A DNA stretch of 64,000 nucleotides from an uncultured Flavobacteriaceae bacterium (GTDB taxonomy: Bacteria; Bacteroidota; Bacteroidia; Flavobacteriales; Flavobacteriaceae): the NCBI GenBank assembly GCA_947487895.1, contig CANKYF010000013.1, forward strand, positions 1-64,000, read 5' to 3'. The notes beneath the pieces are model-generated. The model had not been told where the DNA came from and ran no database searches. It saw only the letters and a program-made list of their open reading frames with translations. A program made the translations under genes and the position numbers. Of the stretch, positions 8,576 to 64,000 are shown piece after piece. Each line of letters opens with the position of its first letter. Position 1 is the stretch's first letter.

Positions 8576-9085
8576 TTAGACCAATAATAATTTATGGAAA
8601 GACTTAATTTTATCGTCTTCATTAATTATTTTATCCATACAGGTTTCTAAAAACTTTAAGAACGTTTTCTTTTCGTCTTCATTAAAACCTTCTATAAGAA
8701 AGTTAATTACCGCTAATCTAGAGGGTTGCGTTTTATTAACTAAGTCAACACCTTTTTTAGTAAGCTTTAAACGCTTTTTTCTTCTGTCGCTTTCGTCCTC
8801 GTATTGTTTAATAAGGTTTTTATCTAAAAGTACACTAAGCAAGTTTGTAATATTAGCTCTAGATACGTTTAAAGATTCTGCCAATTCACTTGCCATAAGA
8901 GATTTAAGGTGTTTTTCTCTTTTAAAAAATGGCAAATTAGGATTAGACGATAAGTGTAATAAAATAAGCCATTGCTGGGTAGTAAGCCCTACCTTTTGGT
9001 ATACTTCATCACCTATTTTTTTCAACTGGTTTGATAAATCAAATATGCTTAATACGATTGATTCTTCAATGCTTTTTTCTATCAT
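8576..9085 (-). CDS. MarR family transcriptional regulator
   Basis: A 169-aa MarR protein. The recognition region is LAESLNVSRANITNLLSVLL (residues about 85-105) and the wing is DESDRRKKRLKLTKKG. It sits 53 bp downstream of the nitrilase-fold gene on the same strand, behind the operator at 10190-10208, so it is likely autoregulated. It is the only recognisable regulator in the catabolic cluster. MarR dimers bind roughly 20-bp palindromes and respond to small aromatic or hydrophobic ligands. I infer that it controls the 19/35-bp operators that precede most cluster operons. Confidence 0.9.
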   Translation of the reverse strand: MIEKSIEESIVLSIFDLSNQLKKIGDEVYQKVGLTTQQWLILLHLSSNPNLPFFKREKHLKSLMASELAESLNVSRANITNLLSVLLDKNLIKQYEDESDRRKKRLKLTKKGVDLVNKTQPSRLAVINFLIEGFNEDEKKTFLKFLETCMDKIINEDDKIKSFHKLLLV

Positions 9086-9138
9086 AATTCTTTTTCATTT
9101 ATTTAAAGAATAGTGCTGCAATATAATATATTATGCAG

Positions 9139-10152
9139 TTATTCTTGTAGTTTTTTAATAACGTTTAACTGGGTTTTTATAAATAAATCTTTATTGGGGG
9201 TTTCACCTTTAAAACTGTTGGCAGGATAATGCGAATAGTCTGTATAAGATTTTGCATAAAGTTCAAAGCGTTGTCTTGCATTATAATTTTGCATAGATAC
9301 TTTAGAACGGTAATCTCTTAATGCGGGGATGTCTATATAACTATTGGCCACCATACTGCCACCAGTGCCTGCTTCGGCTAACACATGTCCTTCATAACTC
9401 ACCACTTTAGAAAGTCCATCTGTGGCAGCAAACGGAAAATCTATTCCTGAAATACCGGCAGAATTTGAAGATACTACATAGCTCATATTTTCTATGGCTC
9501 TGGCACGTTTAGCAATGTCTTTGTGAGTTAACTGCGGACTTCCAGCTTCTGAGGAAGAATGCAAAAACACTTCGGCACCACGCATCATTAAACACCTTGC
9601 TATTTCCGGATACATAATTTCTTCTGAAGCTATACAGGCTAAATTACCTAGCTTGGTTTTAGCCACAGGGAAAAGCGCATCATCTCCGTAATATTTAATA
9701 TAATCATCTAAAACATCATGCGGCGTAGGTGCAAACATAGAGTTCAATCTTCTATATTTAAGAATAAGTTCACCTTCATCATCAATGATAAAACTGCTTT
9801 GAAAATATAACTCTGGGAAATTAGCGTCTAGTTCATAAAAATTACCTGATAAAAAGATAGAATGCTTAATGCAAAACGCTTTCATTTCTTCAAACAATGG
9901 ATCGTCTGTTGAAATACATGCTTTTTCTCTCCATTCATCTATAGATTCTCCAAAAGGGAAGCTGGTTAAAAAGTATTCTGGTAATACAATGAGTTTTAAA
10001 TCTGGACCAATAAAGGCCTTAGAACCTCGTATTTCGGCTAGCACTTTTCCTAAGGATTCTTTCATCATTGTGCGCGCAGATGCTCTGTCTTTTACAGCGT
10101 TAATTGCGAAACACTCTGTCTGTAATGCTAATGCTTTGTAACGTTTAATCAA
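9139..10152 (-). CDS. Nitrilase-fold carbon-nitrogen hydrolase with Ser in place of the catalytic Cys
   Basis: The 337-aa protein has the nitrilase layout: Glu59 in VLPEYFL, Lys132 in LKYRRLN, and the elbow IASEEIMYPE followed by MRGAEVFLHSSSE. Aligned on the YPE segment, the usual nucleophile Cys is Ser176; a Cys lies three residues earlier (Cys173). Family members hydrolyse amides or nitriles, or transfer amides. It could act on a half-amide or carboxamide in the pathway, or be a binding protein. It is transcribed with marR from the operator at 10190-10208. Confidence 0.8.
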   Translation of the reverse strand: MIKRYKALALQTECFAINAVKDRASARTMMKESLGKVLAEIRGSKAFIGPDLKLIVLPEYFLTSFPFGESIDEWREKACISTDDPLFEEMKAFCIKHSIFLSGNFYELDANFPELYFQSSFIIDDEGELILKYRRLNSMFAPTPHDVLDDYIKYYGDDALFPVAKTKLGNLACIASEEIMYPEIARCLMMRGAEVFLHSSSEAGSPQLTHKDIAKRARAIENMSYVVSSNSAGISGIDFPFAATDGLSKVVSYEGHVLAEAGTGGSMVANSYIDIPALRDYRSKVSMQNYNARQRFELYAKSYTDYSHYPANSFKGETPNKDLFIKTQLNVIKKLQE

Positions 10153-10189
10153 TGTGTTTAATTTTATTCGTAATAAGATACTACAAAAA

Positions 10190-10208
10190 TAGTTAATATT
10201 ATTAACTA
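10190..10208. promoter_or_regulatory. Cluster operator, single 19-bp site
   Basis: A perfect TAGTTAAT-ATT-ATTAACTA palindrome, 38 bp upstream of the nitrilase-fold/marR operon. It defines the minimal form of the operator seen eleven times in the cluster. Confidence 0.75.
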
Positions 10209-10274
10209 TTTAGGTTAAAAAGTAAATTCTTATTATTGAATTCATTGATTTTATGACACAATAATAAACACCGT

Positions 10275-11333
10275 TTACTCTTTTAAGTTAAACTTCAGTT
10301 CGGTTTTTGGTGTGTTTTTTGGAGCTTGTGTTTTTTCTATAATTTGCCATGTTACTCCAGCTGTATCTCTTATAATAAAAGAGGCCTCATTAAATTCATT
10401 TTTTGTAACAGGCGTTATTTTTAATCCTTCATGTTTTTCAGCTAGTTGATACACCATATCTAATTTAGGTGTATAGAATGAATGCAACGTAATGCCTTTT
10501 TCACCAACACGTTGTTGATCCGATTTATTGGTTTTAGTGCCGTTTGGAATAAAGAATTTCATTTTTCCGCAGATATTATTAGGCGATACAAATCCCTGAT
10601 ACCAATGGCTAAATCCTGGCTCCATTTGAAACACACGTTTAGGTCCTTTTAACCAATCACCGTCTAATTGAGGAGCATCTTCGGCTTGTAATCCTAAAAC
10701 AGTACTTAAATAGTCCATAGCTTCCATAGAAGAAGCGTTTATAATAAAATCATGATGTGTAAACTCACTTGTTTTTAGTTTCGTATCATTTTCAATAGTG
10801 CCATACCCTGGAATTTCATACCCATAACGTTGAAAGAAAATATGATTAAAAAATTCACCATACACCGCATTTTCTCTTACTAGTATTGGTCTATTAAAAA
10901 AGTCTTTTTCACCAGTGTTCAATCCGAATAAATCATCGGCTATAGGTTCTGTAGGCAACCAGAGTTTTTTACCCACGTCTCTAGCTGTTTGATAGATGTC
11001 ATACAAACGAAAAATATCATGTGTCATCATCACTGCAATTCTAGAACCTATGGTTTCAACTGGAGCATAACCGACACCATCACCTAGGGGTTGTTCCCAT
11101 TCTAAAACACGAACTAACCCATGGCTATCTGTATGTCCGTTTTGCAATCTATAAGAGGTGAGTTTTGAATTCACTCCATATAATTTGAGAGCTTCATCTG
11201 CCGAAATAGTGGCTTTTTTAACTTCTTTGAATCCAAAATCTGCAAAATATTTTTTAGCATACGCTGCATCATCTGTTCCTAGCATCACTTCATACAATCC
11301 GCTTATTCCTGTATCTGGTAATTGGTTATTCAA
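10275..11333 (-). CDS. VOC-superfamily (glyoxalase/extradiol-dioxygenase fold) protein
   Basis: The 352-aa protein consists of vicinal-oxygen-chelate modules: GISGLYEVMLGTDDAAYAKK at the start, FTHHDFIINASSMEAMDYL near residue 192, and IIRDTAGVTWQIIEK near the end. His in FTHHDF, His in ITLHSFYT and Glu in WQIIE could form the 2-His-1-carboxylate iron site of extradiol dioxygenases. A ring-cleaving dioxygenase on a pyrrolic or phenolic substrate is possible but unproven. It is last in the minus-strand operon 13458-10275, 5 bp from the aminotransferase gene. A related but divergent VOC gene starts at 63050. Confidence 0.75.
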   Translation of the reverse strand: MNNQLPDTGISGLYEVMLGTDDAAYAKKYFADFGFKEVKKATISADEALKLYGVNSKLTSYRLQNGHTDSHGLVRVLEWEQPLGDGVGYAPVETIGSRIAVMMTHDIFRLYDIYQTARDVGKKLWLPTEPIADDLFGLNTGEKDFFNRPILVRENAVYGEFFNHIFFQRYGYEIPGYGTIENDTKLKTSEFTHHDFIINASSMEAMDYLSTVLGLQAEDAPQLDGDWLKGPKRVFQMEPGFSHWYQGFVSPNNICGKMKFFIPNGTKTNKSDQQRVGEKGITLHSFYTPKLDMVYQLAEKHEGLKITPVTKNEFNEASFIIRDTAGVTWQIIEKTQAPKNTPKTELKFNLKE

Positions 11334-11337: not shown

Positions 11338-12435
11338 TTAATGTTTTAAGGCTTTAATAAATAATTTCATTTCTTCCATGGTCCCCACAGATATTCTGGA
11401 CCATTGTCCATCCTTTTCATAAATTCTACTACCTTTAATATGGTGTTGTTTTAACAGCTCTAAATAGTTGTATTTATAGTTAGTCAGTGAAAAATAAATA
11501 AAACTTGTATTTGAGGGTATGCACTTTATATTTAATTTTTCTAGCTCACCAATGGTATAAGATCTTGCATTTTGATTTAATGTTTTTACCTTTTTTGTAA
11601 ACGTTGTGTCTTTTAACGAAGCTATGGCTCCAGCTGCCGAAACGGTGCTAATATCACCGCCGTTCCAGGTTAATAATTGCCCCAGTTTTTTAATAGTCTT
11701 TTCATTAGCAATAGCGTAACCCACTCGAGCACCCGCCAGACCATAAATTTTAGAAAAGGTTTTTGCTACAATGACGTTTTGATTTTCAATGGTGTAGCTA
11801 ATCACAGATGTTAGGTCTGTAAATTCAAGATAAGCTTCGTCTACAAGCACCAGAGATGTTTTACTAGCCTTATTAATGAATGCTTTTAAAGCTTCTGGAT
11901 CACAAACAGTTCCTGTTGGATTATTTGGGTTGCAAATATATACTAGTCTTGTTTCTGGAGTTATGGCATTTAGCATAGCTCCTAAATTGTGTTTTTTCTC
12001 AGTGGTTAATGGCACAGAAATTTTGGTTAATCCTAATTTTTGCGCCATAAACCTCCAATAGTTAAAGGTGGGTTCTGCGGTTATAAAATTTCCTTTTTGT
12101 AAAGCAGCTAATTTTACCCCTAAATCTAGAATTTCTGTAGACCCCGCAGTTATTAGAATATTTTTAGTGCTTACATTGTTTTGCTGCGCTAATTTGGAAG
12201 CTAAATTAGAAATTACATGTCTATCATATCTATTCATATTGATATACTTTGCCATTTCTATTCTTGCCATAGGAGAGGGGCCATATGGGTTTTCATTAAG
12301 TCCTAATTGAATAGGTGTATTCTCTAAATCTAAATATGGACTAGGTAATGTTTTAGCAAAAGTTTGAGTTTGAGCCAGTCCAAAACCTACAACTCCTAAA
12401 CTAATTTTTTTTAACCAATCTCTTCTATTGTCCAT
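11338..12435 (-). CDS. Exported class I/II PLP aminotransferase (HisC-like)
   Basis: The 365-aa protein has a fold-type I aminotransferase core: LGLNENPYGPSP, ITAGSTEILDL, YICNPNNPTGT, LVDEAYLEF, and the PLP lysine in VAKTFSKIYGLAGARVGYA. It is closest in style to histidinol-phosphate aminotransferases. The N-terminus (MDNRRDWLKKISLGVVGFG, then AQTQTFA) looks like a Tat signal with the twin arginine at residues 3-4, implying export as a folded, PLP-loaded enzyme. This matches the periplasmic character of other cluster enzymes. The substrate is unknown. It lies between a VOC gene and a CurA-type reductase. Confidence 0.85.
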   Translation of the reverse strand: MDNRRDWLKKISLGVVGFGLAQTQTFAKTLPSPYLDLENTPIQLGLNENPYGPSPMARIEMAKYINMNRYDRHVISNLASKLAQQNNVSTKNILITAGSTEILDLGVKLAALQKGNFITAEPTFNYWRFMAQKLGLTKISVPLTTEKKHNLGAMLNAITPETRLVYICNPNNPTGTVCDPEALKAFINKASKTSLVLVDEAYLEFTDLTSVISYTIENQNVIVAKTFSKIYGLAGARVGYAIANEKTIKKLGQLLTWNGGDISTVSAAGAIASLKDTTFTKKVKTLNQNARSYTIGELEKLNIKCIPSNTSFIYFSLTNYKYNYLELLKQHHIKGSRIYEKDGQWSRISVGTMEEMKLFIKALKH

Positions 12436-12459: not shown

Positions 12460-13458
12460 TTAAACTTCTAAGATTAACTTTCCAAAGTTTTCTCCTGTGA
12501 AGAGCATTTGTAAGGCAGAGGTGAAGTTCTCTATACCTTTAACAGTATGCTCTTTTACGTATATTTTATCTTCATTAATCCATTGCGCTATTTCTTTTGC
12601 TGCTGCTGGCCACTGTTCCACAAAATCAAATACAATAATACCGTTCATTTTACCTCTTGCAGATACAATTTTCATGTAATTTTTAGGACCTGTAATATTT
12701 GCCATGTCATTGTATTGAGATATAGCACCACATATAACCACACGGGCACCTCTAGCTAAATTCATTAAAGCAATATCTAATGTTTCACCGCCAACATTAT
12801 CATAAAATATATGAATACCATCTGGAGCATATGCTTTAAGTTTAGCATCAATATCTTCGGTTTTATAATTAATGGCATAATCAAAACCACAAGATTCTGT
12901 TAGAAATTTACATTTAGCATCACTACCAGCAGAACCAATAACGGTACAGCCTTTTAATTTAGCTATTTGACCAACTGTAGAACCTACAATTCCTGCAGCA
13001 CCAGAGATATAGACAATATCTCCCGCTTTTGGTTCTCCTCTTTTTAACAGACCAAAATAAGCTGTCATTCCTGGCATTCCTAACACTCCTAAATGATGAG
13101 ATGATTTACTTGTAGAAACGTCAATTTTTCTTATGCCTTTTCCATCTGTAGTACAATGTGTTTGTACTCCCAGTAAACCTTCAACATAGTCTCCAACCTT
13201 AAAATTATCATGTTTAGATTCAATAACTTTTCCTGCCGAAAATGATCGCATCACTGTACCAATTTCAACCCCTTTTATATAGGTAGTACCTTCATTCATC
13301 CAACCGCGCATTGCAGGATCTATTGAAATAGCTTCAATTGCTACTAAAAATTGTCCATCATTTAGGGCTTCTATTTTTTCTTCTTCTACTCTAAAATTAC
13401 TATCTTGAACAGCACCTTTAGGTCTCTCGGTTAGTACTATTTTTGTGTTAACCATCAT
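12460..13458 (-). CDS. NADP-dependent medium-chain oxidoreductase, CurA/prostaglandin-reductase type (copy 1)
   Basis: A 332-aa MDR protein with the hallmarks of the leukotriene B4 dehydrogenase/CurA group: RPKGAVQDSNFRVEE at the start, AAGIVGSTVGQIAKLKG as the nucleotide loop, and IFYDNVGGETLDIALMNL. Zinc ligands are absent. Family members reduce the double bond of alpha,beta-unsaturated ketones or related conjugated systems with NADPH. In this cluster it could saturate an exocyclic vinyl or methine bond (inference). It is the first gene of the minus-strand operon behind the operator at 13506-13540. A closely similar paralogue lies at 29345-30379. Confidence 0.85.
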   Translation of the reverse strand: MMVNTKIVLTERPKGAVQDSNFRVEEEKIEALNDGQFLVAIEAISIDPAMRGWMNEGTTYIKGVEIGTVMRSFSAGKVIESKHDNFKVGDYVEGLLGVQTHCTTDGKGIRKIDVSTSKSSHHLGVLGMPGMTAYFGLLKRGEPKAGDIVYISGAAGIVGSTVGQIAKLKGCTVIGSAGSDAKCKFLTESCGFDYAINYKTEDIDAKLKAYAPDGIHIFYDNVGGETLDIALMNLARGARVVICGAISQYNDMANITGPKNYMKIVSARGKMNGIIVFDFVEQWPAAAKEIAQWINEDKIYVKEHTVKGIENFTSALQMLFTGENFGKLILEV

Positions 13459-13505: not shown

Positions 13506-13540
13506 TAGTTAATTTTATTAATAATTAAGTATATTAACTA
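13506..13540. promoter_or_regulatory. Cluster operator, double 35-bp site, divergent promoter
   Basis: Outer half-sites TAGTTAAT and ATTAACTA flank a 13-bp ATTAATAATTAAG core with 3-bp spacers. This equals two 19-bp sites with centres 16 bp apart. It lies between the divergent CurA-type reductase (minus) and alpha/beta-hydrolase (plus) operons. Confidence 0.8.
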
Positions 13541-13561: not shown

Positions 13562-14584
13562 GTGAAAACTAGTAAATACGTCACTGTAGATTCTAAAAGG
13601 TTGCATTTTCATATGTTAGGAAATGGTCCTGCTTTGGTATTGTTTCATCCATCGCCACATACATCAGAAATTTTGTTGCCATTGGCAGAAAGGTTAGCAG
13701 ATTTTTATACTGTTTTTGCTATTGATACACCAGGCTATGGTAAATCTAGCCCCTTAAGTTCTGAACCTAATCAATTAAGTGATTATACCGAATTTTTGCA
13801 TCGCTGTTTTAAAATCATGAATATAAAAAATCCATCAATTTATGGATCTGCAACTGGAGCTCAATTGGCTATAAGGTATGCTTTAGAATACCCAAAAAAT
13901 GTAGCAAGTATATTTCTTGATAACGCTGCTCATTTTGATGATGCGCTTTGCAACACTATTTTAGATCACTATTTCCCAGATTTTACACCTAAAAAGGATG
14001 GAAGCCATTTACCGCAAGTTTGGAAAATGGTGAGCCAAATGTTTCAATATTTTCCGTGGTGTTTTAGAGGAGAAAAATATGCTTTACACAGACCGCAACT
14101 ACCTCCTCCTGTATTGAATAGTATAGCTTTAGATTTTTTAAGAGCTGGAGCTAATTACTATATGGCGTATAGGTTGGCCTTTAAACATGAAAGAGCTAAA
14201 TATGTTCAAGCATTGAAGGTACCAACTACCATTTTTAGATGGAACGGAAGTATTATTAAAGAACACATTAATAATTTATTGGCTTTTGATTTACCCTCAA
14301 ATGTGAAGACACTATTTATTAATGGAACACCAGATGAACGCATGCAATTACTTACAGATTGCATCACTGGGGAAGCAGATCAATATAAAAGCTATAAGGC
14401 ATCTAGAAAGATACAAGCTTTTAAAGCAAATGCTCCAATAGCATATAATAAGATTATTAAAGATTTGCCAGAAATTGTATCAAACGGCTCACATTTAATA
14501 ACAGCTTGGGAATTATTAATGGAGCGTAACCCAAATTTAAGTGCCGAAATGGTGCAATCTTGTCTAATAGACTCCTATTCATAA
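13562..14584 (+). CDS. Alpha/beta-hydrolase-fold protein lacking the usual nucleophile
   Basis: The 340-aa protein starts with GTG at 13562. It has the fold signatures GNGPALVLFHPSPHT (oxyanion region), AIDTPGYGKSS, and the nucleophile elbow IYGSATGAQLAIRYA. In that elbow the G-x-S-x-G serine position is Ala97. The C-terminal histidine loop is present (SNGSHLI). Without the nucleophile it is unlikely to be a normal esterase. Cofactor-free oxygenases, lyases and non-catalytic members of the fold are alternatives. It opens the plus-strand operon with a CpeT-like lipoprotein and an SDR. Confidence 0.75.
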   Translation: MKTSKYVTVDSKRLHFHMLGNGPALVLFHPSPHTSEILLPLAERLADFYTVFAIDTPGYGKSSPLSSEPNQLSDYTEFLHRCFKIMNIKNPSIYGSATGAQLAIRYALEYPKNVASIFLDNAAHFDDALCNTILDHYFPDFTPKKDGSHLPQVWKMVSQMFQYFPWCFRGEKYALHRPQLPPPVLNSIALDFLRAGANYYMAYRLAFKHERAKYVQALKVPTTIFRWNGSIIKEHINNLLAFDLPSNVKTLFINGTPDERMQLLTDCITGEADQYKSYKASRKIQAFKANAPIAYNKIIKDLPEIVSNGSHLITAWELLMERNPNLSAEMVQSCLIDSYS

Positions 14585-14599: not shown

Positions 14600-15352
14600 A
14601 TGAGACATTTTATAGTTACAATTATAACAATCATTTTGTTTATCAGCTGTAATAATAACTCAGAAAAACCAATGCATACCGAAGCAAAAAGTAGCATTGA
14701 ATTTTCTGGGCATTATGACAATTTTTTACAGTATTGGTTAGAAAATACCAAAACGGATATACATAGAGTTGAAACCGAAGAGAAACACAGACATTTATCT
14801 CTAAATATAGAGGAAACAGATTCTGGTGCATATAATTTTGAGATTAGAGAAGGTAGAAATGGTAAAACTTTAGTGGAAAGTATAGTTGTAACTGAAAATG
14901 ATTTAGCACAAAATGTGAAGAAAATAGGAGACACTATTTATGTCTCAAATATGAAGCATTTTGAAAACGAAACACCATATAAATTCATTAAAACTAGAAA
15001 ATTTTCTGGTTGGATAGAAATGCCTTTAGAACAATATGAAGATAGCACTTATAGAAAAAGTAAGCTTGAAATTCATGATCAAGGAGGAATGGCAGAAATT
15101 GATATTGATGGTGTACAATACACAGCTGAGTTAACCCAATTGTTATTTGGTAAAAAATTAGCAATAATGAAACTAGCTATTTATAACATGCCTTTAGATA
15201 GTGTGGGTATTAATAGTAGATCTATTAGTTATACATGGTCTAACCCAGATTCCAAACGTATTGGAATTAATTTACGAAAAGTAGTGTCTGGTTGGACCTT
15301 TATTGAACCTGGTTATATTAATTCTGATAATACCAATTTTAAAAAGAAATAA
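14600..15352 (+). CDS. CpeT-related lipoprotein, mainly the C-terminal module
   Basis: The 250-aa protein has a lipoprotein signal (VTIITIILFISC, Cys17). Its first half is a reduced CpcT/CpeT-like region (FSGHYDNFLQYWLENTK resembles the family's WFxGEFDNxxQ start). The second half is the module shared with three larger paralogues: FSGWIEMP, LEIHDQGG, ITYTW-like SYTWSNPDSKRIGINLR, and a final GWTFIEPG. CpcT/CpeT proteins attach or chaperone bilins in cyanobacteria. A bilin-like ligand here is inference. The stop codon overlaps the start of the SDR gene. Confidence 0.7.
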   Translation: MRHFIVTIITIILFISCNNNSEKPMHTEAKSSIEFSGHYDNFLQYWLENTKTDIHRVETEEKHRHLSLNIEETDSGAYNFEIREGRNGKTLVESIVVTENDLAQNVKKIGDTIYVSNMKHFENETPYKFIKTRKFSGWIEMPLEQYEDSTYRKSKLEIHDQGGMAEIDIDGVQYTAELTQLLFGKKLAIMKLAIYNMPLDSVGINSRSISYTWSNPDSKRIGINLRKVVSGWTFIEPGYINSDNTNFKKK

Positions 15353-16101: not shown

Positions 16102-16114
16102 AGATAAACTAGGT

Positions 16115-17318: not shown

Positions 17319-17353
17319 TAATTAACATAATTAATAGTTAATAATATTAACTA
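17319..17353. promoter_or_regulatory. Cluster operator, double 35-bp site
   Basis: Half-sites TAATTAAC and ATTAACTA with a 13-bp ATTAATAGTTAAT core and 3-bp spacers. It lies 14 bp upstream of the CpeT-like gene at 16319-17305 and just downstream of the long operon that ends at 17392. Confidence 0.75.
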
Positions 17354-31138: not shown

Positions 31139-31148
31139 ATCGTTATGT

Positions 31149-41363: not shown

Positions 41364-41441
41364 TTTTTTATATATTTGGAACTCCTAACAAGGAGTAATT
41401 AAAAAAAGCGAAACCATTCAATAAAGTTTATTAGTTTGATT

Positions 41442-48487: not shown

Positions 48488-48522
48488 TGATTAACTTTAT
48501 TAATAATTAATATTGTTAACTA
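48488..48522. promoter_or_regulatory. Cluster operator, double 35-bp site, divergent promoter
   Basis: Half-sites TGATTAAC and GTTAACTA flank an ATTAATAATTAAT core with 3-bp spacers. It lies between the MFS/oxidoreductase operon (minus) and the second hydratase operon (plus). Confidence 0.8.
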
Positions 48523-57295: not shown

Positions 57296-57314
57296 TAGTT
57301 AACTTAGTTAACTA
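57296..57314. promoter_or_regulatory. Cluster operator, single 19-bp site
   Basis: A perfect TAGTTAAC-TTA-GTTAACTA palindrome, 21 bp upstream of hyuB. It gives hyuB and the genes behind it a promoter separate from hyuA. Confidence 0.75.
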
Positions 57315-57335: not shown

Positions 57336-58955
57336 ATGCAAGTAACACAAACAAAATTTGATCCAATAGCCTTGAGTATTTTATGGTCGAGGCTCATAAG
57401 TATAGTAGATGAAGCTGGAACAACACTTCAGCGTACATCATTTTCAACAGTAACTAGAGAATCTAATGATTTTGCAGTAGTATTAATGGATAAGAAAGGA
57501 AGATCTATTGCACAATCTAGTGTTTCTGTACCCTCATTTTTAGGGGTATTGCCTATGTTAACAAAGGCTTTATTAAAAGATTATTTTCCTGAAGACACAT
57601 GGAAAGATGGTGATGTGGTAATGACAAATGACCCATGGTTGTGTGCAGGACATAAACCAGATATTGGCATAGTTTCGCCAATATTTTATCAGAAAAAATT
57701 AATTGGTTTTATCGGCACCATAGCACATTCACCAGATATGGGTGGTGTGCTTTGGGGTGCAGGTTCAAGAGATTTATATGAAGAAGGACTTATGGTACCA
57801 CCTACTAAATTAATTTCAGAAGGAACACCTAATGATACCTTGTTTAATATTTTAGAACATAATGTAAGAGCGGCAGACCAAACTGTGGGTGACATTAGGG
57901 CACAAATTGCAGCCAATGATCAAGGGATAAAATCCTTAATGAAGCTCATGGAAGAAAACCATCTAGATGATCTTCAAGATTTGGCTGATGCTGTAATAAA
58001 TGCTTCAGAAAAAGCGATGAGAGAAGCCTTATTAGAGGCGCCAGATGGAAGCTATACTTATGAATATGATACAGACGGTGATGGACGCGGAAATAAGTGT
58101 CATTTTGAAATCACTGTAAATATAAAAGGAGACGAAATTCATGCCGATTACACAGGAACCTCAGGGGCACACCCTTTAAGTATTAATGCGGTACTAAATT
58201 ATACCTATGCGTATACGGCGTACCCTATTAAATGTACGTTTAGTCCAGATGTTCCTAATAACGACGGGTCTTTCTACCCTATAAAAGTTACAGCACCTAA
58301 AGGCTGTTTAGTAAATGCACAAAAACCATCGCCACTGGGTGCCAGAAATATAACTGGGAATATGCTACACTCAGTGGTATTTGGTGCATTAGCCAAAGCA
58401 GTACCAAAGCAAGTGCAAGCAGATTGCGGTAGTGCTTGTTGGTGTATTGTTTTAAATGGTGAGGATAAAGGCAAAGAATTTGTAGAGTATTTCTTTTTAA
58501 ATGGAGGTTATGGAGCTAGACCAAATATGGATGGTGAGCATGTATTAAGTTTTCCAACCAATGTTGCCAATGTACCTATTGAAGTATTAGAAACTGATAT
58601 TGCTGTTCTAGTTACCGAAAAATCGTTAGTACCTAATTCAGGAGGACAAGGTGAATTTAGAGGCGGTTTAGGGCAACGTTTTAGTTTTAAAAATGTGGGT
58701 GAAAATCCATTAAACATATCGTTGTTAACAGAGAAAACGCAAACACCTGCAAAAGGAATATTGCTAGGTGAAGATGGTCAAATGGGATCTATGGAGATTA
58801 TTCCTAAAAGAGATTTTCCGCCTAAAGGATTAGATAAATTACATCCTGGAGAAGAATTAATATTAACTTTACCTGGCGGCGGCGGATATGGAGACCCATC
58901 AAAACGAGATAAAAGCTTAATTGAAGAAGATAAAGCGTTAGGTTATATCAATTAA
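57336..58955 (+). CDS. hyuB: Hydantoinase/oxoprolinase B-type subunit (HyuB)
   Basis: The 539-aa protein has the HyuB signatures: FDPIALSILWSRLISIVDEA, RTSFSTVTRESNDFAVVLMD, VVMTNDPWLCAGHKPDIGIV, GFIGTIAHSPDMGGVLWGAG, and at the C-terminus LTLPGGGGYGDPSKR. It is the catalytic partner of HyuA in ATP-dependent opening of hydantoin- or oxoproline-type rings. The C-terminal region is slightly shorter than in many HyuB proteins but ends at the usual glycine-rich motif. It heads the operon 57336-62028. Confidence 0.9.
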   Translation: MQVTQTKFDPIALSILWSRLISIVDEAGTTLQRTSFSTVTRESNDFAVVLMDKKGRSIAQSSVSVPSFLGVLPMLTKALLKDYFPEDTWKDGDVVMTNDPWLCAGHKPDIGIVSPIFYQKKLIGFIGTIAHSPDMGGVLWGAGSRDLYEEGLMVPPTKLISEGTPNDTLFNILEHNVRAADQTVGDIRAQIAANDQGIKSLMKLMEENHLDDLQDLADAVINASEKAMREALLEAPDGSYTYEYDTDGDGRGNKCHFEITVNIKGDEIHADYTGTSGAHPLSINAVLNYTYAYTAYPIKCTFSPDVPNNDGSFYPIKVTAPKGCLVNAQKPSPLGARNITGNMLHSVVFGALAKAVPKQVQADCGSACWCIVLNGEDKGKEFVEYFFLNGGYGARPNMDGEHVLSFPTNVANVPIEVLETDIAVLVTEKSLVPNSGGQGEFRGGLGQRFSFKNVGENPLNISLLTEKTQTPAKGILLGEDGQMGSMEIIPKRDFPPKGLDKLHPGEELILTLPGGGGYGDPSKRDKSLIEEDKALGYIN

Positions 58956-58968: not shown

Positions 58969-60153
58969 ATGGCTAAGAGTATACCACCAGTTTGGAATAA
59001 AATTGCAAAACATGCAATGCTTCCAGAAACCACACACGATGAAAGGGCCAGATATAATTTTTTGGCCAATTTAAATAAACATTTGGCACATGTATCTCAA
59101 GGCAATAAAATAGCCTATGAAACACGTGTAGAACCAAAATTTAAAAAAGAGCACGGTAGAGAAATAAAAGATACTAAAGAGTTAGGGCAAGAAATAGCTA
59201 AAGACCCTCATTACCAAATATGGTCTTCTTTACGTAGAAGTACTATGGAAATGCGTCAGCAGGCAGGACGCTCCATTGTATTACGTCAAGCAGAAGCACT
59301 TAGAGATAAAGCCAGAGCGCTAAATGCAGGTAAAGATAGTTTAGTTTTAGATTCAAATTGTGAAATACCACCGTATTTGTTAGCAGTAGATAACCATTTA
59401 ATGCCAGGGAGTTATCATACAGAACTCATTGAAGATGATGTAACCCCTGCTGCAAATTATGATTCAGGTATTTTTGTAACTACCGCTGGACTTTTAGGAA
59501 GATATAACGATGGTGGAGGAAAAGCAATTACAAGTTGGGTAAAGAAAAATTATCCAAATTTTAACCCCAAAAGAATATTAGATATAGGCTGTGGCATGGG
59601 GCATAATGTATTGCCAATTGCAAGAGCCTTCCCTGATGCAGAAGTTATTGCAATTGATACTGGCGCTCCAATGCTACGTTATGCACATGCTAGAGCAATG
59701 GATTTAGGAATAACCAATGTTAAGTTCATGCAAATGGATGCTGGAAAAACTATATTTGAAGATGCCTCTTTTGATTGGGTACAGTCTACCATGTTTTTTC
59801 ATGAAACAGGAGGTAAATCTATTTATAATATAATGAATGAAGTATACAGGCTATTAAAACCTGGCGGATTGACACTTCATATAGAACAACCTCAATATAC
59901 AGATGATATGAGTCTGTTTGAAAAATTTATAAGAGATTGGGATGCCCTGAACAATTCAGAACCATATTGGTCTAAAATGCATGATATAGAGCCATTAGAT
60001 TTAATGAAAGCTTCTGGATTTAAAGAAGAAGATTTTATGCAGATAGGCGCAAAGGCTGAAAATGATTTAGACGATGGAAGTCAAAATGCAGACGAACCTG
60101 AAGATCATGGAAGATCGCCAATTTGGAACGTGTTTGGAGCTATAAAAAATTAA
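58969..60153 (+). CDS. SAM-dependent methyltransferase with long N-terminal region
   Basis: The 394-aa protein has a class I methyltransferase domain at about residues 195-320: RILDIGCGMGHNVLPIARAF (motif I), AEVIAIDTGAPMLRYAHARA (motif II), VKFMQMDAGKTIFEDASFDWV, and YRLLKPGGLTLHIEQP. The first 180 residues are helical, with many His and Arg, and have no family I recognise. It may methylate a carboxyl, amino or phenolic group, or the N-terminal part may bind the real substrate. It lies 13 bp after hyuB. Confidence 0.82.
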   Translation: MAKSIPPVWNKIAKHAMLPETTHDERARYNFLANLNKHLAHVSQGNKIAYETRVEPKFKKEHGREIKDTKELGQEIAKDPHYQIWSSLRRSTMEMRQQAGRSIVLRQAEALRDKARALNAGKDSLVLDSNCEIPPYLLAVDNHLMPGSYHTELIEDDVTPAANYDSGIFVTTAGLLGRYNDGGGKAITSWVKKNYPNFNPKRILDIGCGMGHNVLPIARAFPDAEVIAIDTGAPMLRYAHARAMDLGITNVKFMQMDAGKTIFEDASFDWVQSTMFFHETGGKSIYNIMNEVYRLLKPGGLTLHIEQPQYTDDMSLFEKFIRDWDALNNSEPYWSKMHDIEPLDLMKASGFKEEDFMQIGAKAENDLDDGSQNADEPEDHGRSPIWNVFGAIKN

Positions 60154-60163: not shown

Positions 60164-60517
60164 ATGATTGATTATATAAAATTAGCCTCTAGCAAATCAA
60201 AAGGGAAACGCCCTTATTTTCATGATGATCCAGCAGTAGAACGTGTATTAAACATTACCATGGCAGTGGCAGGTGAGTTGGCTGTGATGCGAGAGCGTAT
60301 GGATAGTATTGAACGCATTCTTGAGAAAAAAGGATTGGTTCTAAAAGAAGAAATTGAAAATTACGTACCAGATTCAAAAGAAATAGAAGAAGAGCGTCAA
60401 ACTTGGCATAGTGAATATATTTCAAGGATACTTCGTATTGTACAGCAAGAAATGGAAGAGCTTGAAAATCCAGATAAGAGTATTGAAGATATTGCCAATG
60501 ATATAAATGAAATGTAA
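60164..60517 (+). CDS. Small helical protein of unknown function
   Basis: A 117-aa acidic protein with likely helices (AVERVLNITMAVAGELAVMR, RMDSIERILEKKG, EYISRILRIVQQEMEELENP). I do not recognise it. It is tightly fitted between the methyltransferase and the NTF2-like gene, whose start overlaps its stop by one base. A helper or subunit role for one of these enzymes is likely, in view of the translational coupling. Confidence 0.65.
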   Translation: MIDYIKLASSKSKGKRPYFHDDPAVERVLNITMAVAGELAVMRERMDSIERILEKKGLVLKEEIENYVPDSKEIEEERQTWHSEYISRILRIVQQEMEELENPDKSIEDIANDINEM

Positions 60518-60936
60518 TGGCAGAACTTCATGATAGAATTACAAAATTTTTCAATGCTATTATAGATAGAGATATTGAAGAAATTAAAAACGGCTATTGT
60601 CAAGACGAAAAAACTTATGTGGTTTTAGAAGGACCGCGATATAGTACAAAAGGATTTGACTTAATCTCTAAAGGTTGGTCAGATTTTACAAATTCTCCCA
60701 TTGCTATGACCAAAATTGTATGGACAGAAGGCCCTTTTGAAGAAATTGTTGGAGATATAGGATGGATTAGTGGTATAACAGAATTGTATTTAGACGTTAA
60801 AGGAAAAAAGGTGTTTAATACGTTTAGAGCTTCCTTTGTGTTTAAAAGAGAAAATAACGATTGGAAAATTAGACATGAGCACGTATCTGCTCCTCACCCT
60901 GATCCTTATGGAATAGGCGATTGGCTTGAAAAATAA
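60517..60936 (+). CDS. SnoaL/NTF2-like domain protein
   Basis: A 139-aa protein with the cone-shaped NTF2 pattern: N-terminal helix ELHDRITKFFNAIIDRDIEE, DEKTYVVLEGPRYSTKGFDL, and the terminal strands TFRASFVFKRENNDWKIRHE. Members act as isomerases, cyclases, dehydratases or small ligand pockets. The C-terminal HEHVSAPHPDPYG is typical of SnoaL-like proteins. The specific reaction cannot be predicted. It overlaps the preceding small gene by one base. Confidence 0.78.
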   Translation: MAELHDRITKFFNAIIDRDIEEIKNGYCQDEKTYVVLEGPRYSTKGFDLISKGWSDFTNSPIAMTKIVWTEGPFEEIVGDIGWISGITELYLDVKGKKVFNTFRASFVFKRENNDWKIRHEHVSAPHPDPYGIGDWLEK

Positions 60937-60954: not shown

Positions 60955-62028
60955 ATGAAACCCATTAAGAAAATTATAATAACCCATCTTTTTCTAATGG
61001 GTTTTTTTGTGAGCAACGCTCAAGATGAAAAAAATAAGAAACCATTGTCTAGTTCGCCAGAAATGGGAGTCACCTCTAAAACAACACAAAAACGTTTAAA
61101 ATCAAGTATACAAGCTAATAGAAAGTTTTCATATCCAGAAAGAGAACTAGATTACTTACTACATATTTGGGAGGGTGAATATGATAATGTAGAGCAGTTA
61201 GATTTTGATAAGATTCAGAATACCAATAAGCAAAATGAGACACATAATCGTGTACATGTTTCAGTAAAACAATTTCAAAATTCAAATTTTGGAGTTGGGG
61301 CTGTATATGTTGAAGAATATCAAGATAATAATCCGTTAAATATTACTAGACAATGCATTTATCAATTAATACCAGATGATGAGATTAAAGGTTTGAAGGT
61401 AAAGGTCTATCATTTTAATGCTAAAAAGCCAATACTATCTATAGGCGAAAGCTTTGATAGCATAAGTATTTTGAAACCAGATTCTAAAAAAATATATGAA
61501 GGTTGTCCTTTAATATTAAAACGAAATGGTGTTGGTTTTTTAGCAAAAACAGATCATAATGAATGTAAAAGTAAAAAGGTCAAGCATTCAGATTATCAAT
61601 TCGAAATAACCGAAAATACCTTTAATTTTCTTGAAAGGAAGACAGAAGAAAAAGAGTCAACACCTTTTATGTTAGAAAAAGCAAGGTGTTTTACATGTAT
61701 GGTAGATTTCCCAAATGATACCAATGGCAGACCAACTATAACCAAACATTATATTGAAATGTATGATCAGGGTGGAGAGTTCATATTTAGTTATCCAGAC
61801 GGGCGAAATATGCTCTTAGGTATGCGAAATACATGGTCTTTTGGAATGCATAGAGAAACATTTGTAATTTATATTTTAGATAAAGCTACCAATAAAACAT
61901 TAATTTATTCATGGGGAAACCCTGGAGCCGATCGTATTGGTTTTAATCCTGGATGGATTCGTGTACAATGTGATTTAAAAACTCAAAGAAATATAAAATT
62001 ACAACAAGAACTTAGACCTGGTTCATAA
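60955..62028 (+). CDS. CpcT/CpeT-like exported protein with C-terminal module (copy 5)
   Basis: The 357-aa protein has a signal peptide (IIITHLFLMGFFVSNAQ, cleavage near residue 22), a basic linker, and a CpeT domain from about residue 62: YLLHIWEGEYDNVEQLDFD, NITRQCIYQLI (TRQC in place of YRQR), YEGCPLILKRN, and FLAKTDHNECKSK. The C-terminal module follows: IEMYDQGGEFIF, LIYSWGNPGADRIGFNPGW. It is the most diverged copy in the YRQR motif. It ends the hyuB operon, 5 bp from the convergent DUF1838 gene. Confidence 0.75.
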   Translation: MKPIKKIIITHLFLMGFFVSNAQDEKNKKPLSSSPEMGVTSKTTQKRLKSSIQANRKFSYPERELDYLLHIWEGEYDNVEQLDFDKIQNTNKQNETHNRVHVSVKQFQNSNFGVGAVYVEEYQDNNPLNITRQCIYQLIPDDEIKGLKVKVYHFNAKKPILSIGESFDSISILKPDSKKIYEGCPLILKRNGVGFLAKTDHNECKSKKVKHSDYQFEITENTFNFLERKTEEKESTPFMLEKARCFTCMVDFPNDTNGRPTITKHYIEMYDQGGEFIFSYPDGRNMLLGMRNTWSFGMHRETFVIYILDKATNKTLIYSWGNPGADRIGFNPGWIRVQCDLKTQRNIKLQQELRPGS

Positions 62029-62033
62029 TAAGT

Positions 62034-62954
62034 CTATTGCTCACCTTTTCTTAGTTTTTTATAACTGGCATAGGTGCTACGTCTTCCTTTCCAAGGTGTT
62101 TCATCTTTAAAATAATTAGGCTGTACGTTGTCTACATATGTTTTCATGGCATCTGGTATTTCAGAAATATCAGTAATTTTTCTTCCAGTTGCCCGCCACA
62201 TAACAAACCCTTCTTTTTGTCTCATACGTAACCAAGGCTCCCAAGAATTGACTGCAGTCCAGAAAAAGTTTTGATTGCATGATGCTAATGTGTCATCAAA
62301 GAGTTCATTAGCATTGGCTATATAAGTTGTGGAAGAACCAAAATGCAATTGTTTACCAGCAGAAGAAATAGGCCACTCATCTGGCTGAATAGGGTTTTTA
62401 AAACTATGTGATCCGTATTCATCTAGCCATACTTGATCTCCAGATTGCACCCAATTTGTATTATAAGGTTTAATGCTTTCTCCTGATTTAATGCCTTTTG
62501 GAGTATAAATGGTTTTACTACCACCTCCATACATAAAATGAAAAGGTTTCACAATTTCGTTGGTATATGGGTTTTTCCATGAACTCAATACATCTCCTTT
62601 CTCTAAATCACCAAAAAAGCCTAGGTCAAAACTTTCTTTAGTAATATGCTCACCTTCAATCCGCCAATTACTTTTAGCAAGTCCTTGTAAAGTGGTTAAT
62701 GGTTTTGGTGCTTCATTTGGCACAATACCCCAAAGATGACCAGAAAACCAATTGTAAATTGTTGTAGGTTCTAAGCTACCCATTAAACGTATATAAGTTT
62801 TAAACTTATCACTATCAATCTTTTTTAAAGGAGGAATGTTATTGGTGTCTTTGTTAAAAATAGAAGAACTACTTAAAGTAGGTATTGCAGCTAGTGAAAG
62901 GGCAGTAGTGTTAATAAAGGCTCTTCTACTAATATTATTCTTATCTGTTTTCAT
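62034..62954 (-). CDS. DUF1838 family protein with Tat signal (copy 2)
   Basis: The 306-aa protein starts with a twin-arginine leader (NNISRRAFINTTALSLAAIP). The DUF1838 domain follows: FKTYIRLMGSLEPTTIYNWF, LWGIVPNEAPKPLTTLQG, WKNPYTNEIVKPFHFMYGG, SWEPWLRMRQKEGFVMWRAT and YTKK-free C-terminal TPWKGRRSTYASY. It parallels the lipoprotein at 33255-34163 through NPYT(G/N)E, PWLxW/R and the ending. Export through Tat suggests folding, and possibly cofactor binding, before export. The divergent operator is at 62986-63020. Confidence 0.78.
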   Translation of the reverse strand: MKTDKNNISRRAFINTTALSLAAIPTLSSSSIFNKDTNNIPPLKKIDSDKFKTYIRLMGSLEPTTIYNWFSGHLWGIVPNEAPKPLTTLQGLAKSNWRIEGEHITKESFDLGFFGDLEKGDVLSSWKNPYTNEIVKPFHFMYGGGSKTIYTPKGIKSGESIKPYNTNWVQSGDQVWLDEYGSHSFKNPIQPDEWPISSAGKQLHFGSSTTYIANANELFDDTLASCNQNFFWTAVNSWEPWLRMRQKEGFVMWRATGRKITDISEIPDAMKTYVDNVQPNYFKDETPWKGRRSTYASYKKLRKGEQ

Positions 62955-62985
62955 ATTTGGAAAATTTTAATTTCATAAATATAAA

Positions 62986-63020
62986 TAATTAACATTATTA
63001 ATGGTTAATTATGTTAACTA
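62986..63020. promoter_or_regulatory. Cluster operator, double 35-bp site, divergent promoter
   Basis: Half-sites TAATTAAC and GTTAACTA flank an ATTAATGGTTAAT core with 3-bp spacers. It lies between the DUF1838 gene (minus) and the partial VOC gene (plus), showing that the regulon continues beyond the window. Confidence 0.8.
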
Positions 63021-63049
63021 TTTTTAGTATCTTGCTCTATATTATTGAT

Positions 63050-64000
63050 ATGATGTTCAAATTAAAAACAATATTAGAGGTTGTTTATAGTGTTGGTAAC
63101 ATGGAAAAAGTAGAGCATTTTTTCTGTGATTATGGAGGATTGAATGTTGTTGGTAATTATGAAACTGATAGAACAGTTTTAGATTTCTGGAATTTAGAAC
63201 CTTATGTTACAGCTTCAGAAAAGCTAATAAGATTTAATAATCATAAAGCAGGCTCTATTAGATTAATTAAATATAATAATGTAGAGCAAGAATACATAAG
63301 ATCATCTCAAAACCCATGGGATGTTGGGGGTATCATGGATATTAATCTTAGAGTAACAGAAGTAGCTCAAACGTTTAATGATATTAGAGAATTAGGATTC
63401 CATGGCTTGAGTGACCCGCTTCTTCAAAAAATGGGGCCATTTGAGTTGTATGATATATTAATGAAAGGGTATGATGATACTATCATTGCCTTTACACATA
63501 GAGTGCAACCACCATTAGAACTTCAAGAAGGATACAAAATACCGTCACATGTTTATAATTCATCAATAACGGTAAAGAGTCTTGACGAAGCAAAGCAATT
63601 TTATGTAGATGTTTTAGGCTTTTCACTTCTAAATGAATATGAAGTGAAAAAAGATGCTCCCATAGAAAATATGTTCAACATTCCCATGAATATGATAGAG
63701 AATGTGACCTGCAAAGTTAATATGTTTTCCTTAGATGGTTCTAGAGATGTAATATTTCAAGCTTGTGAATTTGAAGGAATAACAGGGAAAGACTTTACAA
63801 AACTGGCAATACCACCTAATAGAGGGTTTTTGATGTATAGGTGTGAAATAGAAGAGATAGAAGCATATTATAAAAAGCTTTTAGAAAAAGGTATTAAAAT
63901 GTATAAAGAACTTCAAAAAATAATTATACAACCTTATGGTAATGTACAATGTTTTGCCATTAAGAGCCCAAATGGTGTTATATGGGAATTTTTAGAAAAG
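63050..64000 (+). CDS. VOC-superfamily protein, partial (runs off the right edge)
   Basis: An open frame of 317 codons from ATG at 63050 without stop. It shows repeated VOC modules: KTILEVVYSVGNMEKVEHFF, IMDINLRVTEVAQTFNDIRE, VYNSSITVKSLDEAKQFYVD then VLGFSLLNEYE, and AIKSPNGVIWEFLEK at the edge. Metal ligands are less clear than in the VOC protein at 10275. It starts 30 bp after the operator at 62986-63020 and may open another cluster operon. Confidence 0.75.
   Translation, partial: MMFKLKTILEVVYSVGNMEKVEHFFCDYGGLNVVGNYETDRTVLDFWNLEPYVTASEKLIRFNNHKAGSIRLIKYNNVEQEYIRSSQNPWDVGGIMDINLRVTEVAQTFNDIRELGFHGLSDPLLQKMGPFELYDILMKGYDDTIIAFTHRVQPPLELQEGYKIPSHVYNSSITVKSLDEAKQFYVDVLGFSLLNEYEVKKDAPIENMFNIPMNMIENVTCKVNMFSLDGSRDVIFQACEFEGITGKDFTKLAIPPNRGFLMYRCEIEEIEAYYKKLLEKGIKMYKELQKIIIQPYGNVQCFAIKSPNGVIWEFLEK

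Follow-up and report, generated by a model that had tools for sequence, protein, structure and literature searches.

The first 64 kb (64,000 nucleotides, here the window) of the 140-kb contig CANKYF010000013.1, from the nearly complete 4.39 Mb genome of an uncultured Flavobacteriaceae bacterium (assembly GCA_947487895.1), opens onto a gene cluster of ~76 kb and 71 genes. We propose that this cluster is a MarR-controlled catabolic regulon with which marine bacteria would obtain carbon and nitrogen from linear tetrapyrroles, or from oxidised fragments of these with one or two pyrrole rings; bilins, such as the phycobilins of red algae, are the most likely substrates. The probability of this reading is put at roughly 50%. 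A maleimide-type lower pathway under one regulator is probable, and a bilin origin of the substrate, perhaps a red-algal phycobilin, is the best inference at about even odds. The predicted regulon is built from known enzyme families.

In the proposed route, the substrate would enter through a TonB receptor and be captured by exported CpeT-like proteins. Periplasmic oxidation by the flavin amine oxidases AO1 and AO2 may pass electrons to cytochrome c, and splitting by HapK/SDR2, VOC, and FAD proteins would yield ylidene-lactams and 2,3-disubstituted maleimides. PuuE-type imidases and HyuAB would open the lactam and imide rings, followed by removal of ammonia by an isochorismatase-type half-amidase (IsoCh) and nitrilase-type amidases; the families of these enzymes are clear and their substrates predicted. 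LeuCD-type hydratases would then hydrate the 2,3-disubstituted maleate, CaiB would transfer CoA, and C-C cleavage by HMGL, of the 3-hydroxy-3-methylglutaryl-CoA (HMG-CoA) lyase type, would release propionyl-CoA with 2-oxoglutarate or 2-oxobutyrate, or alternatively pyruvate with the other acyl-CoA. Disposal is predicted to run through pyruvate dehydrogenase and the carboxylase/methylmalonyl-CoA mutase genes, all preceded by a common operator to which MarR may bind. Complete bilin mineralisation, with CpeT repurposed for capture, periplasmic cytochrome-linked splitting, and a new hematinic-acid/methylalkylmaleimide lower pathway, is an extension held at slightly less than even odds, with variants in Bacteroidota and Pseudomonadota, including alphaproteobacteria with 9–15 CpeT copies.

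The cluster is one evolutionary module. An earlier note on this DNA had described at least 55 kb of coregulated genes; the cluster is real and larger, reaching on the same contig from the MarR gene at 8576 to ~84.4 kb (about position 84415), beyond the window edge. In G026, which belongs to the same family but to another genus, reciprocal best hits exist for 59 of the 71 genes (median identity 77%; 45/51 for genes starting in the window), against 0/9 flanking genes upstream and 1/16 downstream. The 12 without are AT1, CpeT1, RidA, rhodanese, CpeT2, DUF1838a, VOC2, MFS4, AT2, a PQQ-like protein, a 403-aa protein, and VOC4. G026 keeps most of the set on one chromosome stretch. Two further genera, represented by G220 and G339, are also carriers; in the 80 kb taken from each, tblastn finds 57/71 and 59/71 genes at no less than 45% identity and 60% query coverage. 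The internal order is partly rearranged. Across the six other genomes of the window's genus the CpeT count never exceeds one, and the module is therefore accessory.

Pfam searches of all 71 proteins bore out the gene list of the earlier note: a TonB receptor, flavin oxidases, cytochrome c, HyuA and HyuB, two PuuE-like proteins, amidases (9139-10152 and 20154-20819), two LeuC/LeuD pairs, a class III CoA-transferase, an HMGL-type lyase, an HpcH/HpaI-type aldolase, and AceE with E2. Past the window lie DUF1838 and VOC proteins, a second nitrilase-type amidase, MFS carriers, a biotinyl protein, biotin carboxylase, carboxyltransferase, and two methylmalonyl-CoA mutase subunits. The absences it had listed also hold: no glycoside hydrolase or aromatic ring hydroxylase family was found among the 71 proteins, and heme oxygenase (PF01126) has zero matches in the whole host genome. 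SusD is likewise missing from the 71. A class V aminotransferase just beyond the cluster (contig 84437-85957, L134:5437-6957) may be an outer member, since it has a 55% reciprocal best hit at the opposite end of the G026 cluster. At the other edge, nine open reading frames 5' of the MarR gene (1-8509) match nothing in the 100 kb of G026 used for comparison and seemingly lie outside the module. An ~8-kb tract from the SDR1/CpeT1 side to CaiB (about 15100-23100) shares 90–98% DNA identity with Aquimarina sp. 637-3Z (L029) in 500-base pieces while its flanks share only ~73–80%, indicating that part of the cluster has recently recombined between genera.

An inverted-repeat scan of intergenic DNA in the four clusters gave one outstanding dyad, TAGTTAA-N5-TTAACTA, exact in 20 intergenic regions. 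The host genome has 20 sites with 0–1 mismatch, of which 10 lie in the cluster, all 10 intergenic (binomial 3.8e-13), and six exact sites, four of them in the cluster (binomial 1.3e-6); these values are not independent, as the motif was discovered in these same clusters, and conservation across genera is the better evidence. Sites with 0–1 mismatch precede CNhyd1-MarR, ADH1/alpha/beta hydrolase, CpeT1, HMGL/ALDH, TonB, AO1, AceE, LeuC2/MFS2, HyuB, and VOC1/DUF1838b, and two-mismatch sites precede D3598 and the biotinyl-protein operon. Overall, 11 of the 20 intergenic stretches of the host cluster (positions 8000-86500) contain a site with up to two mismatches and 9/20 none. The orthologous promoters of HyuB, HMGL/ALDH, and CNhyd1 carry an exact operator in G026, G339, and G220, and those of AceE and TonB carry it with 1–2 mismatches, placing the AceE site in four genomes. 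Before the carboxylase/methylmalonyl-CoA mutase operon the operator is exact in G026 and G220 and has two mismatches in the host. The G220 site lies in a gap between open reading frames, its coding flag having come from an extrapolated ADH3 boundary, and the G339 stretch fetched excludes the carboxylase genes.

The operator signal lies in the 0–1-mismatch sites. At up to three mismatches the window is barely enriched (26 sites vs. 16.07 expected, reached by 1/100 shuffles) and the stretch L005 not at all (4 vs. 5.52 expected), and at up to two the whole host genome has 135 sites vs. 148 for a reversed control. Common regulation, a guess in the earlier note, is well supported: in four genera the palindrome stands at cluster promoters, those of pyruvate dehydrogenase and the carboxylase/mutase operon among them. 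The MarR protein is predicted to bind this palindrome. The same operator before pyruvate dehydrogenase and propionyl-CoA disposal genes indicates the probable pathway products. One of only two exact operators outside the cluster (L130 position 3352, G000:C7) lies ~120 bp before succinate dehydrogenase-type genes (Sdh_cyt, flavoprotein, and Fe-S subunit), and the regulator may also touch the tricarboxylic acid cycle. A one-mismatch operator (L131 position 3773, G000:C2:105773) separates an MFS carrier from an acyl-CoA thioesterase-like and nitronate-monooxygenase-like pair, possibly further members of the regulon.

PuuE-type enzymes are related to cyclic imide hydrolases, according to the part of PMC9304392 consulted. 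PuuE1 and PuuE2 both belong to PF01522, PuuE2 matches 3cl6 and 3qbu in the PDB, and at 113.6 and 99.9 bits they fall far under the cut-off of 424.6 for the allantoinase model TIGR03212. At family level they are candidate cyclic imide hydrolases, with imides as the predicted substrates. Through its conserved Lys and Cys regions IsoCh aligns with maleamate and N-carbamoylsarcosine amidohydrolases, the PDB entries compared being 1nba, 4l07, 3ot4, and 3uao; the Cys is presumably the nucleophile. LeuC1 and LeuC2 are of the homoaconitase/isopropylmalate isomerase subfamily, each with a LeuD-type partner as in aconitase/homoaconitase-type hydratases. Three cysteines of each (290, 350, and 353; 301, 361, and 364), invariant in 7 sequences including paralogs, are taken to be Fe-S ligands. 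CaiB has formyl-CoA, succinate-glutarate, and succinyl-CoA:mesaconate transferases as its best NCBIfam models, all under cut-off. HMGL exceeds the HMG-CoA-lyase subfamily cut-off (NF004283, 287.3 vs. 246) and its R11, D12, H203, H205, and C236, invariant in 5 sequences, are presumably the catalytic Arg-Asp, His-x-His, and Cys. A substrate other than HMG-CoA is proposed for it.

The order from cyclic imide through half-amide, disubstituted maleate, tertiary hydroxy acid, and CoA thioester to acyl-CoA and 2-oxoacid is well supported. It draws on family membership, catalytic residues, conservation of the imidase and amidase across phyla, non-homologous hydration/cleavage genes in gammaproteobacteria, and the operator before propionyl-CoA and pyruvate genes. 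In the dimethylmaleate branch of nicotinate fermentation an aconitase-family hydratase likewise acts on a 2,3-dialkylmaleate ahead of a C-C lyase, but here the lyase is of the HMG-CoA-lyase type and comes with a CoA-transferase. Known cyclic imide catabolism also places a PuuE/imidase-family ring opener beside a maleamate-amidohydrolase-like enzyme, whereas here a hydratase, CoA-transferase, and lyase follow, uptake and oxidative genes are added, and the imides are predicted to be substituted. The β-substituents of tetrapyrroles are methyl plus ethyl, vinyl, or propionate, hence the imide from a propionate-bearing ring is hematinic acid. The enzyme set likely matches the needs of 2,3-disubstituted maleimides such as hematinic acid and methylethylmaleimide. 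By chemical derivation, opened hematinic acid would be a methyl-substituted homoaconitate, and its cleavage would give propionyl-CoA and 2-oxoglutarate.

Versions of this pathway occur in other lineages. An alignment scan with PuuE2 over one genome per species (84,980 species) found 110 relatives, and the analysis used the best 80. The triad of IsoCh, PuuE2, and PuuE1 is present at 76/80 loci, discounting PuuE1/PuuE2 cross-matches, from Bacteroidota, Pseudomonadota, and one Acidimicrobiales contig. Three exceptions lack IsoCh (L034, L061, and L103; in each the contig ends no more than 600 bases from PuuE2) and one lacks PuuE1 (L106). The fetched stretch includes LeuC- and LeuD-type genes at 23/30 Bacteroidota loci and 24/50 others; outside Bacteroidota LeuC has only 28–39% identity to LeuC1 or LeuC2, which suggests that other LeuCD lineages were recruited. 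Gammaproteobacterial clusters retain the two imidases and the half-amidase along with CpeT, HapK, SDR2, and MT. A single stretch of gamma proteobacterium NOR5-3 carries the triad with HMGL, CaiB, LeuD, LeuC, CpeT, SDR2, HapK, ALDH, MT, the 117-aa partner, CNhyd1, DUF1838, VOC, and lp257 homologs. In Aestuariibacter A3R04 one gene run encodes CpeT, two CaiB-type transferases, an acyl-CoA dehydrogenase, a mesaconyl-CoA-hydratase-like MaoC, an HpcH/citrate-lyase-like protein, a PuuE-like protein, SDR2, HapK, ALDH, CNhyd1, the 117-aa protein, and MT, followed by a TonB receptor and the triad, with no LeuCD or HMGL homolog in the 40-kb stretch. Paraglaciecola arctica has relatives of the Aestuariibacter MaoC (78%) and HpcH (62%); its fetched 40 kb also encode CMD, HMGL, and CaiB homologs and show no LeuCD. 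In our view, no other evidence speaks as strongly for a branched unsaturated diacid intermediate as this non-homologous set, which would carry out the same hydration and cleavage with a CoA ester as substrate.

The earlier note had read the enzymes as a bilin pathway; its imide opening, deamidation, hydration, and cleavage stand, and its bilin part, which we hold at even odds, draws on CpeT homology, fold, and co-occurrence. Four of the five exported CpeT-like proteins it counted match PF06206 (51.6–103.5 bits, cut-off 21), and these are all the matches of the host genome; the fifth has no Pfam match and is related by BLAST over part of its length. Export and lipoprotein status here and below were read by eye from translations, apart from AO1, where all 5 sequences compared keep the twin Arg. 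A model of CpeT1 (13-sequence alignment, predicted local distance difference test score, pLDDT, 89) matches first CpcT and CpcT-phycocyanobilin (4o4s, E 2.7e-10, TM score 0.80 by target length and 0.50 by query length), then Arabidopsis CRL and phage CpeT, and nothing else at E ≤0.001. CpcT 4o4o is the sole PDB sequence match of CpeT3 up to E 10 (E 0.0018). C152 and C172 of CpeT1 are invariant in the alignment, and the equivalent cysteines of CpeT3 align with CpcT cysteines.

The proteins share family, paired Cys, RxR and N..Q motifs, and, in the CpeT1 model, the CpcT fold with the T-type lyases CpcT/CpeT, but differ in being exported, in a ~120-residue extra C-terminal region in three of the four, in having several paralogs per genome, and in a host genome with no phycobilisome match (0 for PF00502). 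They are thus not phycobiliprotein lyases here. The lack of both phycobilisome and heme oxygenase matches fits the use of a foreign pigment and proves nothing. Among 397 genomes of the same family searched for both genes, PuuE2 (at least 89% identity) occurs in 4, which are also the sole genomes with three or more CpeT copies (Fisher p 9.8e-10); any CpeT is found in 4/4 PuuE2 genomes vs. 26/393 others (p 2.7e-5). In this family the two genes are linked in one cluster. The single matches in those 26 (e.g. L008-L019) mostly score 120–167 bits, with G305 a 21.9-bit fragment containing a stop. Among 246 genomes of the P. arctica family, sampled around G425, which was picked for having both genes, PuuE2 (at least 75%) and CpeT occur in 27 each, with both in 15, one only in 12 and 12, and neither in 207 (p 4.5e-10). 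CpeT matches of 100–140 bits, a band set post hoc, fall in 14 of these genomes, 14/14 with PuuE2. The counts for both families ignore shared ancestry. CpeT and the imidase co-occur in two unrelated families, as a family trend. Across 49 PuuE2 genomes searched for CpeT, drawn from 50 of the 80 loci, 34 carry it, and five alphaproteobacterial metagenome-assembled genomes (L102, L104, L105, L107, and L108) have 9–15 copies each. Of four sampled alphaproteobacterial stretches, three have CpeT close to nitrilase-type amidases and two have it close to TonB receptors, which may be the same theme on a larger scale. Isolate 4-528, one of the carriers, shares its name with a strain from the red alga Gelidium and is taken by that name to be the same strain.

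Several observations weigh against use of bilins. CpeT1 is only 19% identical to CpcT, and the matching fold of CRL comes from Arabidopsis, a plant without phycobilisomes. Single CpeT matches occur in 26/397 genomes of the family that lack the cluster and 15/49 PuuE2 genomes have none, so CpeT alone is no marker. CpeT1, CpeT2, RidA, rhodanese, and DUF1838a are among the genes without a reciprocal best hit in G026, although other CpeT and DUF1838 members have one. HyuAB is absent from the fetched gammaproteobacterial stretches; its count of 0/80 at PuuE2 loci says little, as these reach only 10 kb each side and HyuAB is farther off in the window too. VOC1, VOC4, and VOC6 lack an invariant His, unlike 2-His-1-carboxylate dioxygenases, and a DUF1838 model (pLDDT 76) is uninformative, with nothing above TM 0.40 by either length among the 50 matches listed. 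Finally, no enzyme that splits the tetrapyrrole is recognised in the cluster.

That last absence would be expected if the substrate were not intact bilins but the one- and two-ring products of chlorophyll and heme oxidation (maleimides, hematinic acid, BOX amides, propentdyopents), with the imidase, half-amidase, hydratase, and lyase core as the real function and CpeT binding dipyrroles. Such debris is natural according to the part of PMC7318184 consulted, and the triad with LeuCD also occurs in gammaproteobacterial genomes with no CpeT match (e.g. L060, L063, L064, L075, L078, and L083). Four or five CpeT-like proteins, the one modelled being CpcT-like, and many exported oxidative proteins would however be superfluous for ready-made maleimides, and we consider this origin unlikely. 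Another marine nitrogen heterocycle bound by CpeT, such as a pyrrolidine or pyrrole alkaloid, a mycosporine-like amino acid, or a hydantoin-like compound, would account for N-methylhydantoinase as the nearest relative of HyuA, for the N-carbamoylsarcosine amidohydrolases among the PDB relatives of IsoCh, and for CpeT members in cluster-free flavobacteria and Arabidopsis. It is made improbable by the low allantoinase scores of the PuuE proteins and by the lower pathway; to our knowledge, hydantoin or ureide routes have no need of LeuCD hydratases, CaiB, an HMG-CoA-lyase-type enzyme, or propionyl-CoA disposal.

HapK, a 103-aa protein, is paired with SDR2 in both Bacteroidota and Pseudomonadota, and in the part of PMC4525488 consulted HapK and heme-degrading enzymes are both structural neighbours of NosA. 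Both facts could suit a regulon that opens intact cyclic tetrapyrroles (heme, pheophorbide) by a non-canonical oxygenase such as the HapK-family protein. The genome has no PF01126, the 71 proteins include no family plainly concerned with iron or magnesium handling, and the candidate activity falls to so small a protein as HapK; we regard this as very improbable. Uptake of linear tetrapyrroles is preferred. Seven VOC-like proteins occur in the cluster (10275-11333, 63011-64000, L005), six with Pfam matches; the invariant His is present in VOC0, VOC3, and VOC5, and the three without it are perhaps not metal dioxygenases. The DUF1838 model reaches E <0.001 with the PsbO-type chains 6jlu_O and 7pi0_O at TM ≤0.26, and no fold is claimed. 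The RidA/YjgF-type protein (20823-21377), with a lipoprotein signal, is perhaps an imine hydrolase outside the cytoplasm among exported amine-oxidase-type enzymes.

Other readings of the cluster were rejected. A polysaccharide utilisation locus, defined by a SusC/SusD pair with glycoside hydrolases, would share the TonB receptor only. Allantoin/ureide breakdown leaves the hydratase, lyase, and propionyl genes unexplained and the PuuE proteins far under the cut-off; creatinine or hydantoin breakdown accounts for HyuA and IsoCh only. Canonical heme breakdown lacks PF01126. Riboflavin/lumichrome breakdown, as far as the part of PMC12746152 consulted describes it, uses a P450, thiamin-dependent heterocycle decarboxylation, and a Rieske-type dioxygenase, a different gene set. 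The features in the window are listed in the table.

Table. Cluster genes and operator sites in the window (window coordinates; percentages are identities to the named cluster or genome).
Feature	Position	Strand	Basis
MarR-family regulator, candidate regulon repressor	8576..9085	-	PF12802/PF01047; 83% ortholog at G026 cluster edge
CNhyd1, nitrilase-superfamily amidase	9139..10152	-	PF00795; 87% G026; 53-56% NOR5-3, Aestuariibacter clusters
Operator, exact, 5' of CNhyd1-MarR	10190..10208	.	motif scan
VOC0, VOC-like (label of this analysis)	10275..11333	-	no Pfam match; 78% G026, 52% P. arctica
AT1, class I/II aminotransferase	11338..12435	-	PF00155; no reciprocal best hit in G026
ADH1, medium-chain reductase	12460..13458	-	PF16884/PF00107; 74% G026
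Operator, 1 mismatch, ADH1/alpha/beta-hydrolase gap	13522..13540	.	motif scan
Alpha/beta hydrolase	13562..14584	+	PF00561
Fifth CpeT-like protein, lipoprotein by eye	14600..15352	+	partial-length BLAST relation to CpeT1-type proteins; no Pfam match
SDR1, short-chain dehydrogenase	15352..16101	+	PF13561; 66% G026
CpeT1, exported by eye	16319..17305	-	PF06206 1.6e-29; model pLDDT 89; no reciprocal best hit in G026
Operator, exact, 5' of CpeT1	17335..17353	.	motif scan
SBF-family sodium symporter	17392..18276	-	PF01758
PuuE1, PuuE-like putative cyclic amide/imide hydrolase 1	18286..19233	-	PF01522; TIGR03212 113.6 bits, cut-off 424.6
PuuE2, PuuE-like putative cyclic imidase 2, core marker	19199..20149	-	PF01522; nearest PDB PuuE 3cl6, also 3qbu
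IsoCh, isochorismatase-type putative half-amidase, maleamate-amidohydrolase-like	20154..20819	-	PF00857; Lys, Cys regions align with 3ot4/3uao
RidA/YjgF-type protein, lipobox by eye	20823..21377	-	PF14588
Rhodanese, signal peptide by eye	21383..22336	-	PF00581
CaiB, class III CoA-transferase	22338..23519	-	PF02515
CMD, carboxymuconolactone-decarboxylase-like	23520..24080	-	PF02627
LeuD-type hydratase small subunit 1	24084..24593	-	PF00694
LeuC1, LeuC/homoaconitase-type hydratase large subunit	24595..25830	-	PF00330; NF001614/TIGR01343 over cut-off
HMGL, HMG-CoA-lyase-type acyl-CoA lyase	25830..26732	-	NF004283 287.3 bits, cut-off 246
Operator, 1 mismatch, HMGL/ALDH operon gap	26852..26870	.	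exact at orthologous place in G026, G339, G220
ALDH, aldehyde dehydrogenase	26923..28335	+	PF00171
ADH2, medium-chain reductase	28341..29342	-	PF00107/PF08240
ADH3, medium-chain reductase	29345..30379	-	PF16884
lp257, lipoprotein by eye	30386..31159	-	no Pfam match; in NOR5-3 cluster too; 37% in G427
CpeT2, exported by eye	31149..31850	-	PF06206 6.6e-28
MFS transporter 1	31847..33097	-	PF07690
DUF1838a, lipoprotein by eye	33255..34163	-	PF08894
TonB-dependent receptor, without SusD partner	34296..36914	-	PF00593/PF07715
Operator, exact, 5' of TonB receptor	37049..37067	.	motif scan
Cytochrome c, lipobox by eye	37307..37771	-	PF00034; CxxCH at residue 65
CpeT3, exported by eye	37786..38787	-	PF06206 2.5e-24
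AO1, exported flavin amine oxidase	38798..40300	-	PF01593; twin Arg R5 R6 invariant in 5 sequences
Operator, 1 mismatch, 5' of AO1	40509..40527	.	motif scan
Operator, 1 mismatch, 5' of AceE	41345..41363	.	motif scan
Pyruvate dehydrogenase E1, AceE type	41436..44120	+	PF17831
Dihydrolipoyl acyltransferase E2	44153..45757	+	PF00198
D3598, DUF3598-like protein, no signal by eye	45866..46378	+	PF12204 24.1 bits, cut-off 22
Flavodoxin-fold quinone/FMN reductase	46430..47074	-	PF02525
MFS transporter 2	47093..48343	-	PF07690
Operator, 1 mismatch, MFS2/LeuC2 gap	48504..48522	.	motif scan
LeuC2, LeuC-type hydratase large subunit	48575..49843	+	PF00330
AO2, flavin amine oxidase, twin-Arg signal by eye	49857..51203	+	PF01593
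LeuD-type hydratase small subunit 2	51216..51740	+	PF00694
HpcH/HpaI-type 4-hydroxy-2-oxoacid aldolase	51747..52508	+	PF03328; nearest PDB 4-hydroxy-2-oxo-heptanedioate aldolase
HapK/REDY-like protein	52524..52835	+	PF11639; sole PDB match up to E 1 is 2jdj REDY-like protein
SDR2, short-chain dehydrogenase	52837..53670	+	adjoins HapK in three gammaproteobacterial clusters as well
HyuA, hydantoinase/oxoprolinase family	53711..55783	+	PF01968/PF05378; nearest PDB N-methylhydantoinase
FAD_binding_2 flavoprotein	55783..57210	+	PF00890
Operator, exact, 5' of HyuB	57296..57314	.	exact in G026, G339, G220 too
HyuB	57336..58955	+	PF02538
MT, methyltransferase-domain protein	58969..60153	+	44-52% in gamma/alphaproteobacterial loci
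Conserved 117-aa partner of MT	60164..60517	+	no Pfam match
SnoaL-like protein	60517..60936	+	PF13474
CpeT4, exported by eye	60955..62028	+	PF06206 1.4e-13
DUF1838b, twin-Arg signal by eye	62034..62954	-	PF08894
Operator, 1 mismatch, DUF1838b/VOC1 gap	63002..63020	.	motif scan
VOC1, VOC-family, runs past window	63011..64000	+	PF00903

Tetrapyrrole degradation is known to yield hematinic acid and maleimides, and chlorophyll production and degradation are on a scale of 10^12 kg a year; the part of PMC7318184 consulted, which gives both statements, reports hematinic acid but no maleimides in leaves. Gut bilirubin reduction by BilR/BilV is likewise bacterial metabolism of a linear tetrapyrrole; what was consulted of PMC13252198 describes reduction to urobilinogen-type products and no ring breakdown. 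A search of the open-licence literature found related papers only and no bacterial route taking tetrapyrrole rings to central metabolism. If the reading is true, the cluster would provide genes, an operator, strains, and predicted intermediates for the study of tetrapyrrole ring catabolism, and would suggest a function for CpeT-like proteins outside cyanobacteria. Should a bilin substrate be proven, this would be the first complete bacterial route of bilin breakdown known to us.

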